Shown here piece by piece: positions 3,101 through 4,887 of a stretch of DNA of 32,125 nt; position 1 is the first letter of the stretch; each line of letters begins with the position of its first letter. This stretch comes from an uncultured Lachnoclostridium sp. (lineage in GTDB: Bacteria; Bacillota; Clostridia; Lachnospirales; Lachnospiraceae): assembly GCA_944376715.1 (NCBI GenBank), contig CALWDO010000035.1, forward strand, positions 1-32,125, given 5' to 3'. The notes beneath the pieces were generated by a model. That model was not told the origin of the DNA and did not search any database. It worked only from the letters and a program-made list of their open reading frames with translations. The position numbers were made by a program, and so were the translations under genes.

Positions 3101-4459
3101 TATGTTCAGCATACCGCTGCAAATCTCCACTGCGGAACCATTTGTACTCTTCAGATCTGGTCCTTCTTCACTGTCTTCCGTACCGATTGTGAGTGTCCCG
3201 GAAGAGGGCCAGTAAACAGTACTATAATGGGAGGTCAGCGTACCTCCTGTAATGGTCAGGCTGCTTCCCTGATCGCCTCCGGAATATAGATTATTGGTGC
3301 TGGCTGCATAACCTTTTGAGCTCAACGTGCCTCCTGTAATCGTAACTGCAGCACCCGCACTTTCATTATTATAACCCCGGTTAAAAATTACAAGGGCAGA
3401 TCCTTCATTTTGTTCTGCGCGAACAATCCCTCCATTTATCTTCACCGTGCCTCCATAGGTTACGATGGCATTATATGTACTGGTAATATTTGCAGAAGTT
3501 GTCACATCTCCGCCCAGATTGACGATCAGGTATTTATTGGATACGTCTGAAGTTTTTCCTGTATCAAGGATGGTTGCACCGTCCTCTAAGGTCAGACTTC
3601 CGTAATTAACGATACTGCCTGAACCGGCATCCAATGAACCGTTCCTTACCGTCAATGTCCCTTGATTAACCAGCGCGGCATCACAGGCGGCGCCTGATTC
3701 CAAATCGCTCTCCCGGGAAAGTTCGCTGACCGTCAGTGTACGTCCTCCCAAATCCAGCACAATATTCGTGTCCTTCGGAACGGCCACTTTGTCGGGCTGC
3801 GTCGCGTTGTCGGCCAGCGTAATCGTCCCGGATTCTCCGATCGCAGAAATCGCAGTATTCAGATCACTATATCCTGTTTCGCCCACCATGAACGGGCCCG
3901 CCGTCTCATCGTCGCTGCCGTCAGATGCATCAAGCAATGCTACTGTCTTTGTTTCTGTCACTGTAACAGATGCGGCCTCCGTAACCTTTTCCGCAGGACC
4001 CGATTCCTGTCCGTCCGTATCCGAATTCGAGTCCTCCGGAACCTCTTTTGAATCCGGTGCTTTCTTCTGATCTTCATTTTTCTGAGACTCTTCATCCGTC
4101 TTCTGCATTATGCAGTCCCCTTCATGTCCGTCTTCCAGCGTACAGCCTTCCGTCTTCTGGCAGGCCGTCTTTTCTGTTTTGGTTTCAGCATTCTCTCCTG
4201 CGGAATCGCCCTGTTTTTCTTCCGGTATCTGGGGCTGCTCCGTCTCCTCCGGTGCCTCCTCTTCATCTGGGGCTGTCTCCGTTTTCAGTACATCAGCATC
4301 TCCCCATTCCAGATCAGAGTCTTCCTTCTTTTCTGCGGAATCGCCCTGTTCTGTCTGCTGTTCCGTCTCTTCTGCGTAGACTGTTCCGGACAACAATGTC
4401 ACCGTCAGAGACAGAGCCAGCAAAACCGCGAACCATTTTTTCAGTTTGACTTTTTTCAT
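167..4459 (-). CDS. large wall-anchored surface protein with beta-helix repeats
   Basis: Predicted 1430-residue secreted surface protein, adhesin-like. I start it at 4459 because TAGGAGGAG lies just upstream; the open frame runs 22 codons further up but through a terminator-like hairpin. Residues 1-28 form a signal peptide (basic start, hydrophobic core, VYA end). Residues about 30-190 are an acidic Glu/Gln/Lys linker with one Cys motif near 100-116 (ACQKTEGCTL, then GHEGDC). Three modules begin near 190, 600 and 985. Each opens with a GxxxYxxLxxAI-type segment and a LDLNGxTL strand, followed by many SGGTL/SGGSF turns typical of right-handed parallel beta-helices. Residues about 1310-1353 are PENPGTDT-like Pro-rich repeats, a wall-spanning stalk. 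The end has SAKTGD near 1388, a hydrophobic helix and a basic tail, the layout of a sortase substrate, although the usual proline is alanine. The ligand is unknown. Confidence 0.85.
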   Translation of the reverse strand: MKKVKLKKWFAVLLALSLTVTLLSGTVYAEETEQQTEQGDSAEKKEDSDLEWGDADVLKTETAPDEEEAPEETEQPQIPEEKQGDSAGENAETKTEKTACQKTEGCTLEDGHEGDCIMQKTDEESQKNEDQKKAPDSKEVPEDSNSDTDGQESGPAEKVTEAASVTVTETKTVALLDASDGSDDETAGPFMVGETGYSDLNTAISAIGESGTITLADNATQPDKVAVPKDTNIVLDLGGRTLTVSELSRESDLESGAACDAALVNQGTLTVRNGSLDAGSGSIVNYGSLTLEDGATILDTGKTSDVSNKYLIVNLGGDVTTSANITSTYNAIVTYGGTVKINGGIVRAEQNEGSALVIFNRGYNNESAGAAVTITGGTLSSKGYAASTNNLYSGGDQGSSLTITGGTLTSHYSTVYWPSSGTLTIGTEDSEEGPDLKSTNGSAVEICSGMLNIYGGTLRGGTDMGEKDSVPTGKELVAAYRSNSGSASMGDAVTVISHRADGYITAPVQVTIKGGTFDSHMNYGVRYMDCNMAEGTEQLDQKVTVEISGGSFSGELAAVDAQYVQEKDKEFITGGTFSSDIGAYTGLVSVKNEDGSYTVEKPSQDNAAASVERSGEIFYYTSLEDALEEAVSGDTVVLLQNQEENISIPEGISLMLDLNGKTLSVTEPVKVYGNGTSLTVKDSSAAADPSVSEDFSTVTYEAGKIVNTRTERSANAVTIEARNGASFVLESGILESVKNYTVAVYGNTSPKGGSISTTASIHGGYQIGQEGGPAVFGNGAVLNIDGGVIVGRDNSAVAGNGTVNGNANYGGTTINISGGTLIGRIETDNYNANAVYQPQSGVLNISGGTIYADNGTAVVVRAGEVNITGGTIISTGNQEGHVGDSSISLPASAVVVDVSAGYLGAEEGTFKLNISGGASVTAEEGVDAVRVILPEGESLASNWIAVSGGSFSSRVNENYCAEGYKPTNKLGNGKYTVQTEKINECAAKVGDVSYTTVKEAIDAVQAGIGNTIVLQKNVTESISVPAGVEAVLDLNGCTLTNTDGSHTIINNGTLTVRDGSNTGKGTVDNITHAKAAVYNTGTFMLESGKLTRSQEAGTSPSNNGGNSYYVVENHGSMTISGGSVTATGKYSSLVVNKTTEGKEVSLAITGGDLKNEFIAVKNEDYCKLEISGGTVTSPEQALQNWGSAQISGGTMDGPVITWSYGDVASETVIYGSAVINGDVKAVNYMDASAVPTVTVTGGTIKGTLSKGTHDGSTGIKMDLEDSSKSVIQVSGGSFSNKVSEEFCAPGFVPTGVRVDGMYTVEKEETVPEEPGTDTPENPGIDTPENPGTDIPENPDTDTPENPKPDTSAKPAPGKGHGSGSSSDSGSDSNSGAASAASDVAAVNSAKTGDETNILLPTAMFVVGVSALAVCIAVMRKKNIMLKKKDI

Positions 4460-4504
4460 CCTGAAAACTCCTCCTAACTTGAATTTCTGTTCAAAACGCA
4501 CATC

Positions 4505-4551
4505 AAAAAGGCGTACCCCGCCCATCTTAAAATGGGCAGAATACGCCTTTT
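4505..4551 (-). terminator. terminator-like hairpin in the surface gene leader
   Basis: On the minus strand AAAAGGCGTA (4551-4542) pairs perfectly with TACGCC (4515-4510) plus the T run. An inner stem GCCCAT/ATGGGC (4537-4532 with 4525-4520) has a 6-base loop. Five T follow the stem (4509-4505). No minus-strand gene ends nearby (sipL stops about 340 bases upstream), and only about 30 bases separate it from the ribosome-binding site. Any transcript of the surface gene must therefore cross it, which suggests an attenuator rather than an ordinary gene-end terminator. The reverse orientation also has four T. Confidence 0.7.
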
Positions 4552-4557
4552 AATTCT

Positions 4558-4594
4558 GTGTAATTTACGCTTGACGAAAAAGATAAAGTTACAC
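4558..4594 (-). other. stem-loop between microsatellite and terminator hairpin
   Basis: On the minus strand GTGTAA-C-TTTA (4594-4584) pairs with TAAATTACAC (4567-4558). This gives ten base pairs with a single bulged C and a 16-base loop. It lies directly after the CAAG repeat and before the terminator-like hairpin. It may be part of a regulated leader or simply chance; no partner protein or ligand can be named. Confidence 0.45.
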
Positions 4595-4684
4595 TCTTGC
4601 TTGCTTGCTTGCTTGCTTGCTTGCTTGCTTGCTTGCTTGCTTGCTTGCTTGCTTGCTTGCTTCTATTGTGACTCCCTTCGTCAT
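4589..4684 (-). CDS. candidate leader peptide made of repeat-encoded residues
   Basis: A short frame starts at ATG 4684, 11 bases after AAAGGAG (minus strand of 4696-4702). It reads MTKGVTIE, then five ASKQ units encoded by the tetranucleotide tract, then ARV and TAA at 4591-4589, 31 residues in all. The stop falls just before the stem-loop and terminator-like hairpin. Because the repeat unit is 4 bases, gain or loss of one unit changes the frame after the tract. Translation would need a promoter upstream of about 4700 (see 4736-4764). If the nearer promoter (4665-4694) is the only one, this peptide is not made. A different open frame through the same repeat starts further up but has no ribosome-binding site. 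Confidence 0.3.
   Translation of the reverse strand: MTKGVTIEASKQASKQASKQASKQASKQARV
4596..4662. repeat. tetranucleotide microsatellite (CTTG)16 plus CTT
   Basis: Sixteen perfect CTTG units plus a partial one on the plus strand, read as CAAG/AAGC on the strand of the surface gene. The tract lies 137-203 bases upstream of the surface gene start. Perfect tetranucleotide tracts of this length are classic slipped-strand mispairing sites in phase-variable genes of Haemophilus and Neisseria; that role here is inferred from position. The copy number in the assembly may also be affected by sequencing. Confidence 0.97.
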
Positions 4685-4694
4685 CTTTTGTCAA
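4665..4694 (-). promoter_or_regulatory. candidate promoter next to the microsatellite
   Basis: On the minus strand TTGACA (4694-4689, perfect -35) is followed after 18 bases by CACAAT (4670-4665, 4 of 6 for -10). Transcription would begin inside the CAAG tract, near 4658. The repeat would then sit at the very 5' end of the surface gene message. Confidence 0.45.
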
Positions 4695-4735
4695 GCTCCT
4701 TTCCGAACAGCTTTTTGTATTTATGTGCATTTTTA

Positions 4736-4764
4736 ACTTTATCATAAATTATTTCTATTTTCAA
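4736..4764 (-). promoter_or_regulatory. second candidate promoter upstream of the microsatellite
   Basis: On the minus strand TTGAAA (4764-4759) and TAAAGT (4741-4736) are spaced by 17 bases. A transcript from here would start near 4730 and include the candidate leader peptide and the whole repeat. Both boxes are imperfect and the region is AT-rich, so chance matches are likely. The stretch from 4765 to 4887 shows no gene. Confidence 0.3.
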
Positions 4765-4887
4765 CATATTCCCTTATTTTCGCAGTATTTCATGTCTCGC
4801 CACACGCGCCTCAAATATTATAAATATTTGTACATTATTTATTTAATATTTAAAGTCGTTTGTTCCTATAGTTGTTACACTATATTT

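Follow-up and report, generated by a model that had tools for sequence, protein, structure and literature searches.

A (CAAG)n tract in a leader peptide as the probable phase-variable attenuator of a surface protein gene in an uncultured Lachnoclostridium

The subject of this analysis is a CAAG tetranucleotide repeat ahead of a surface protein gene in an uncultured Lachnoclostridium sp. The stretch of DNA examined, here called the window, comprises 32,125 nucleotides (GenBank assembly GCA_944376715.1, contig CALWDO010000035.1, positions 1 to 32,125). All features described lie on its minus strand, which was read using Tandem Repeats Finder for the array, a frame calculation of our own, and a comparison of the hairpin fold with dinucleotide shuffles. 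The array consists of AAG followed by (CAAG)16 at 4596-4662, a perfect period-4 repeat of 16.8 copies with a score of 134, and an exact search for five CAAG units (12 overlapping matches) found it to be the sole such tract in the assembly (2.9 Mb, 88% complete). It reads (KQAS)n without a stop in all frames and is contained in a short leader open reading frame (ORF). This leader starts at ATG 4684, behind the Shine-Dalgarno sequence AAAGGAG (4696-4702), and in the current frame encodes 31 amino acids, MTKGVTIEA(SKQA)n and a short remainder, up to TAA 4591-4589 (4589-4684). A sigma70-type promoter, P1, is predicted 5' of the leader (4736-4764; TTGAAA 4764-4759, a 17 nt spacer, and TAAAGT 4741-4736, with TG ahead of the second hexamer). 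A further promoter-like motif, P2, lies over the leader start (4665-4694; TTGACA 4694-4689, 18 nt, CACAAT 4670-4665), and its predicted start coincides with the beginning of the array.

Between the leader and the surface protein gene (167-4459, ATG 4459, 1430 amino acids) lies a predicted intrinsic terminator at 4505-4551, which folds with -33.6 kcal/mol (z -8.8), a value equalled by none of 200 dinucleotide shuffles. The three frames leaving the array meet stops beginning 4, 66, and 119 nt after it, the stem occupying nucleotides 45-88. The first is the stop of the current frame. The second, TAA 4529-4527 in the terminator loop, is reached upon gain of one unit, and the third, TAG 4476-4474, upon loss of one unit or gain of two. 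This last stop is located beyond the terminator and overlaps the Shine-Dalgarno sequence AGGAGG (4470-4475) of the surface protein gene. A sequence-only reading of the same DNA had named the repeat, the leader Shine-Dalgarno sequence, and the start codon, which were recovered base for base; its three stops, its hairpin, and its arithmetic of unit gain and loss were right as well, as was every coordinate that was checked. A small hairpin (GTGTAA..TTACAC, 4558-4594) is found directly 3' of the array and ahead of the terminator. No Rfam model reached its gathering score in the window; four matches between 4300 and 5000 (three microRNA families and STnc40) were all far below it and all covered the terminator hairpin.

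This anatomy is directly visible, and the locus is very probably a phase-variable attenuator, in which the leader frame set by (CAAG)n controls termination before the surface protein gene. The proposed course of events, from promoter activity, slippage, and leader translation to antitermination and the effect on the protein, is modelled on pil1 of Streptococcus gallolyticus. RNA polymerase would start at P1 and make the leader RNA, and a ribosome starting at ATG 4684 would translate across the array. Replication slippage would alter the number of units and with it the frame behind the tract. In one frame, which is the state of the assembly, the ribosome would stop immediately, the terminator would fold, and the surface protein gene would be off. 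In the two other frames a ribosome at the hairpin, stopping in the loop or beyond, would hold the terminator open and let transcription enter the gene. The prediction of these states draws on S. gallolyticus, where high expression was found with leader stops inside or past the hairpin or 4 nt ahead of it, and mostly low expression with stops at least 28 nt ahead (PMC3894217). Because of this stop-distance rule both longer frames of the window are predicted to be ON. Of the three-state switch proposed in the sequence-only reading the frame dependence therefore stands, but not the three distinct states, the predicted order being OFF/ON/ON.

In order to place the window among its relatives a comparison set of 87 (CAAG)n arrays including the window was assembled, which by genome labels belong mainly to Clostridia and Erysipelotrichia; 52 of them are non-redundant (80% identity over 42 nt). 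Its starting point was the 111 stretches yielded by a scan of named genomes. From these 28 were excluded (Haemophilus, Neisseria, Lonepinella, Treponema, other Proteobacteria, a myxobacterium, restriction-subunit-like coding arrays, a Gracilibacteria record, and a Veillonellaceae record), together with three copies or near-copies (L045, L078, and L128), and to the remaining 80 the loci L034-L038 and L159 and the window were added. Also dropped were one L064 array adjoining a run of N, L156 and L157, which have no upstream sequence, and places listed under a second number. The start codon and P1 were evaluated against single-base shuffles, the frames and the duplex discussed below against dinucleotide shuffles.

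The typical layout of these loci, a recurrence which is an observation in its own right, consists of P1, a Shine-Dalgarno sequence, TTGACA, a start codon, six to nine codons, (CAAG)n, 34-82 nt, an intrinsic terminator, and a gene that often encodes a secreted protein. When the 52 non-redundant loci were aligned at TTGACA, an AAAGGG-like sequence was conserved at positions -7 to -2 before it, corresponding to the Shine-Dalgarno sequence of the window. Counted from the first base of TTGACA, 38 of the 52 have an ATG at a distance of 6-14 nt, as compared to a mean of 9.9 and a maximum of 22 in 2000 shuffles of the spacer bases. The frame of this ATG was open through to the array in 38/39 loci, the other two frames in 11/39 and 17/39. 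With start codon and open frame this far above chance, the comparison of sequences marks the leader ORF as real. Four loci lacking a start codon after TTGACA have an in-frame start farther upstream, with a ribosome-binding-like sequence in one of the four. Three Erysipelotrichaceae loci (L070, L073, and L119) have array and terminator and open starts 5' of TTGACA with no clear ribosome-binding site: ATG at -13 in two, TTG at -19 also in L119, and GTG at -16 or -4 in L070; P1 is not significant in these three.

The frame logic was then compared with shuffles at the other end of the array. An N-free stretch of 170 nt downstream was available for 63 of the 87 loci, 59 of which, including the window, had an intrinsic terminator called by script, and in 56 the terminator base lay at least 30 nt after the array. 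At least one frame reaching the terminator base (within 10 nt) combined with another stopping within 25 nt was observed in 55 of these 56, as compared to a mean of 38.6 (sd 3.4) in shuffles, none of 500 reaching 55. The non-redundant loci gave 33/34 against 23.1 (sd 2.6), again with 0/500. The single miss is L066, where the script picked a second hairpin; its homologue L072 passes. In 6 of the 34 the longest frame meets its stop immediately 5' of the stem, the codon beginning 0-1 nt before it. Of the 32 non-redundant loci with a recognised start, 20 have one frame reaching the terminator, 11 have two, and one has none, so that the switches do not generally follow a strict one-in-three scheme. 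Together with start codon and open frame the 55/56 loci with this arrangement lend strong support to the earlier proposal that a frame-selected leader is translated across the terminator. Reinitiation at the surface protein gene, which had been proposed in addition, is possible in the window but not general, since only 11/53 loci, the window included, place a leader stop close to the called start of the gene, with an ATGA overlap of leader stop and gene start in L034, L047, and L116. Leader-gene coupling may thus add to some of the switches and does not define them.

The weak point named in the sequence-only reading was whether transcription starts far enough upstream. In the region of the window three promoter-like sites were found as compared to 1.2 expected, and when the bases of the upstream 100 nt were shuffled 60 times the P1 score of 13.1 was never matched. 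Across the loci the highest-scoring promoter within 100 nt upstream of the ribosome-binding site had a mean score of 11.4 versus 7.4 in base shuffles, with p at or below 0.05 in 32/51 loci including the window. For 49 loci the mean score was 11.5 in the P1 window and 6.3 and 5.5 in two windows farther upstream, and scores of at least 12 occurred 29 times in the former versus three times and once in the latter two. As a prediction, then, transcription can start 5' of the leader.

Several findings weigh against this interpretation. Loci were excluded by eye and taxon and not blind, and the set is hence partly chosen by eye. Frames that reach the terminator arise often by chance (27.2/34 in shuffles), for which reason a single locus has little weight and it is the set that convinces, and a second frame stopping before the terminator is not enriched (23/34 versus 23.8 in shuffles). 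At the lengths present in the assemblies 14/53 loci are predicted ON versus 22.3 expected at random phase (P 0.011), or 10/32 versus 14.0 when non-redundant (P 0.09). Near-identical loci of other organisms do differ in unit number, which speaks for the switch, yet two such pairs show no change between ON and OFF: L081 and L094 have 19 and 16 units between flanks which are 98.8 and 99.8% identical, three units apart and hence in the same frame, and L084 and L143 have 8.25 and 9.25 units (flanks 97.9 and 97.4% identical), one unit apart with both frames OFF. P1 is not significant in 19/51 loci. Finally, a transcript start inside or after the repeat, which the sequence-only reading had named as evidence against itself, is predicted as a possibility by P2, coexisting with P1; transcripts from P2 would begin in the array, beyond rescue by leader translation.

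P2 deserves separate treatment. In its consensus form it reads TTGACA-N17-NANNNT, TTGACA being placed between ribosome-binding site and ATG, and it overlaps the leader start in most loci. A -10-like hexamer (A at position 2, T at position 6) occurs exactly 17 nt past TTGACA in 38/52 loci, as compared to 0-13 at other spacings from 8 to 23; the window, with 18 nt, is outside these 38. A G at -14 of P2 is present in 32/48 loci, and in L042 P2 is a full consensus promoter. It has therefore to be considered that P2 is the working promoter, in which case transcription would begin inside the array, leaving the leader ORF untranscribed, and the units would act via the RNA 5' end or via promoter output. 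This would agree with the anchoring of the -10-like hexamer, which by the best offset for each anchor fits TTGACA in 36 of 48 loci with a start codon, versus 25 for the start codon and 23 for the array. It would also agree with the search of the order made without requiring TTGACA, where TTGACA preceded 11 of 12 arrays with readable upstream sequence and TTGACT the other. But P2 acting alone gives no reason for a conserved Shine-Dalgarno sequence, an ATG, an open frame, and a frame layout extending to the terminator, nor for P1 being predicted in 32/51 loci, and we judge it improbable. A first reading drawn from P2, namely that the leader ORF is probably untranscribed, was reversed by the start-codon, open-frame, and P1 results. 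Mutual compensation of P1 and P2 was rejected as well, as their scores do not correlate (Spearman 0.09, p 0.51, n=50). That P2 is kept on the translation start since a pause there lets the ribosome load may be considered as speculation.

A different role for the array is suggested by the inverted repeats flanking it in the window. The sequence ATCTTTTTCGTCAAGC at 4569-4584 is an imperfect inverted copy of GCTTGACAAAAGAT (4696-4683) and could pair with the leader start region. The array would then be the loop of a stem formed by pairing of the post-array region with the leader Shine-Dalgarno region, and the units would tune leader initiation or early termination instead of selecting a frame. 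In the window the duplex yields -19.9 kcal/mol versus -14.1 in shuffles (p 0.03). Across 38 loci this pairing, a weaker signal than those described above, has p below 0.05 in 15 and a mean z of -1.3; the duplex is not significant in the other 23, and the frame-wise arrangement of stops and terminator is left unexplained, which makes this stem very unlikely as the basis of the switch. A DNA-inversion switch, also suggested by the inverted repeats, was dropped because all 12 readable arrays of the search of the order face the same way with respect to TTGACA or TTGACT.

A further explanation would be a neutral microsatellite next to a hairpin serving as terminator of the upstream gene, and the SPOCS/LysM gene at 4888-6459, 5' of the leader, is indeed in the same orientation as the surface protein gene. 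The layout, however, recurs before different genes in many taxa. A search of 17 genomes of the genus, the window's own included, found a similar stretch of 100 nt with 88% identity in one other species (genome G012, locus L010), where the layout of the window is repeated ahead of an unrelated lipoprotein-like gene. TTGACA followed 12-42 nt later by four CAAG units was found in 6/299 genomes of the family, own genome included, and the search not requiring TTGACA found 14 arrays in 11/392 genomes of the order. Labels of array stretches in the named-genome scan included Lachnospiraceae, Oscillospiraceae, Ruminococcus, Erysipelotrichaceae, Traorella, Peptostreptococcus, Blautia, Flintibacter, Pseudoflavonifractor, Enterocloster, and Defluviitaleaceae, and single genomes with arrays were labelled Dehalococcoidia and Synergistales. 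For L040, L043, L065, L076, and L089, 9 of the 10 pairwise comparisons lose similarity 117-119 nt behind the array, immediately beyond the terminator (161 nt in L065/L089), and past the conserved leader these five precede different genes, L043 and L065 even within one genome. A neutral repeat is therefore hardly credible. Without the array the motif is ordinary: Shine-Dalgarno sequence, TTGACA, and ATG occurred at 30 places in 27/250 genomes (seven matches for a reversed control pattern), and 29 of these places have no CAAG array, the window's being the only one.

The genes following the arrays are often predicted to be exported. By a crude rule 37/58 called downstream genes looked secreted, as compared to 115/354 other ORFs of the same stretches. 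The surface protein of the window shows by eye a signal peptide, Gly-Gly-Thr-rich repeats resembling a beta-helix, Pro-rich PENPGTD repeats, a C-terminal hydrophobic segment, and a KKK tail. It matched no Pfam family, and one weak structure match to the mucin-like part of MAdCAM-1 (E 0.0003) was taken as low-complexity likeness. Five downstream proteins including that of the window were tested; Listeria-Bacteroides or InlB-type repeats were found in two and a DUF in one, whereas the other two yielded nothing. A MobA/VirD2-type relaxase is encoded 5' of L043, so that some copies probably ride on mobile elements. A query of 161 nt spanning the array of the window (low-complexity filter on) matched nothing in plasmid and phage collections, and one exact pattern found six stretches in viral contigs, none of which showed the leader-terminator layout when 330 nt downstream were read by eye.

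CAAG arrays were also observed in other surroundings. In the Ruminococcus-type metagenome-assembled genomes L051, L057, L091, and L115 a related upstream leader and array are found; in three of them a 116-amino-acid ORF follows and the usual terminator position has no terminator, and in L057 a terminator and then a secreted protein follow. The viral contig L168 contains at 5278-5528, 5' of an ORF start, three successive arrays, each preceded by a near-identical ATCATGCCGTA-like stretch. The viral contigs L165 (11331-11371, reverse strand), L169, and L170 have a CAAG tract near an ORF start. The L165 ORF resembles, by eye, a DNA methyltransferase (LTDIPYDEV), and those of L169 and L170 may do likewise, which suggests phage-borne phase-variable methylases. 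In L049, L056, L112, L120, L129, and L138 the arrays are inside ORFs with flanks that by eye are QYEFYRDALLTY-like, a motif which we take to resemble type I restriction specificity subunits; judged from these flanks, they probably represent phase-variable restriction. In one genome (L035 and L036, two contig ends) the contig breaks fall within the array, so that short-read assemblies probably under-count CAAG switches.

A bolder and decidedly tentative proposal is that promoter, leader, CAAG tract, and terminator form a widespread modular switch family in gut Bacillota, copied before unrelated surface genes and mobile-element cargo, with P2 as an integral part. A pause of sigma-bound RNA polymerase or a block by a second polymerase, occurring as Shine-Dalgarno sequence and ATG emerge, could let a ribosome load early enough to arrive at the terminator, which, if true, would be a new way to synchronise ribosome and polymerase in an attenuator. 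In any case a conserved promoter motif inside a leader poses a sharp question on transcription-translation coupling. If the logic of the phase-variable attenuator holds in uncultured gut Clostridia, ON and OFF would be predictable for each locus from genomes or metagenomes by the number of CAAG units modulo 3, and the population heterogeneity of commensal surface proteins would become directly measurable.

Other known systems share single features with the window. Surface genes of Haemophilus and Neisseria undergo tetranucleotide phase variation with CAAG-type repeats; their arrays were matched in the same scan, and by eye the repeats lie early in the coding sequence of the gene itself, where neither a leader nor a terminator is present. 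The surface protein CwpV of Clostridioides difficile is phase-variable by DNA inversion, with an intrinsic terminator in the cwpV leader. ON and OFF are set there by the terminator, as is proposed for the window, where repeat slippage and leader translation would be at work. In trp-type leader-peptide attenuators the position of a ribosome decides on the terminator in response to charged tRNA, with no repeat or heritable switching. The window would resemble them in the ribosome on a leader peptide and differ in its repeat and heritable switching.

Closest are the two pilus operons of S. gallolyticus, pil1 and pil3, the paper on which also discusses amino-acid attenuators of the trp type (PMC3894217). 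There GCAGA repeats are part of leader peptides 5' of an intrinsic terminator, and an out-of-frame change of repeat number lengthens the leader peptide, whereupon the ribosome prevents termination; this was tested in pil1 by mutating the terminator and the ATG with its ribosome-binding site and by introducing stops (PMC3894217). The window likewise has a repeat in a leader ORF with ribosome-binding site and ATG, one early-stop frame, and another reaching the hairpin, and as predictions a promoter 5' of the leader and an intrinsic terminator between leader and gene. By this analogy the window would work like pil1; the unit differs, and no common origin is claimed. No report of a CAAG tetranucleotide leader-switch family in gut Clostridia was recognised among the literature matches listed, judged by title and beginning of the abstract and excluding most subscription papers and all bioRxiv preprints, and among these matches slippage-driven leader attenuation as a means of phase variation is represented only by these two operons of one Streptococcus. 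The novelty suggested by the sequence-only reading, the interpretation of which is partly supported overall, would accordingly apply to gut Clostridia but not to the mechanism, which has been described and tested (PMC3894217). A P2-like promoter motif at the leader start finds no mention for pil1 and pil3 in the text of that paper, figures not covered. Common to both systems are the repeat in a leader ORF and, as predicted for the window, the terminator, a peptide length set by the frame, and the control of surface structures. In contrast to a GCAGA pentanucleotide at two pilus operons of one species, a CAAG tetranucleotide is found at dozens of loci, many of which precede other secreted proteins and some of which are near mobile-element genes. 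The switching mechanism is thus already known from S. gallolyticus, and the CAAG family would be a variant of it with a different unit.

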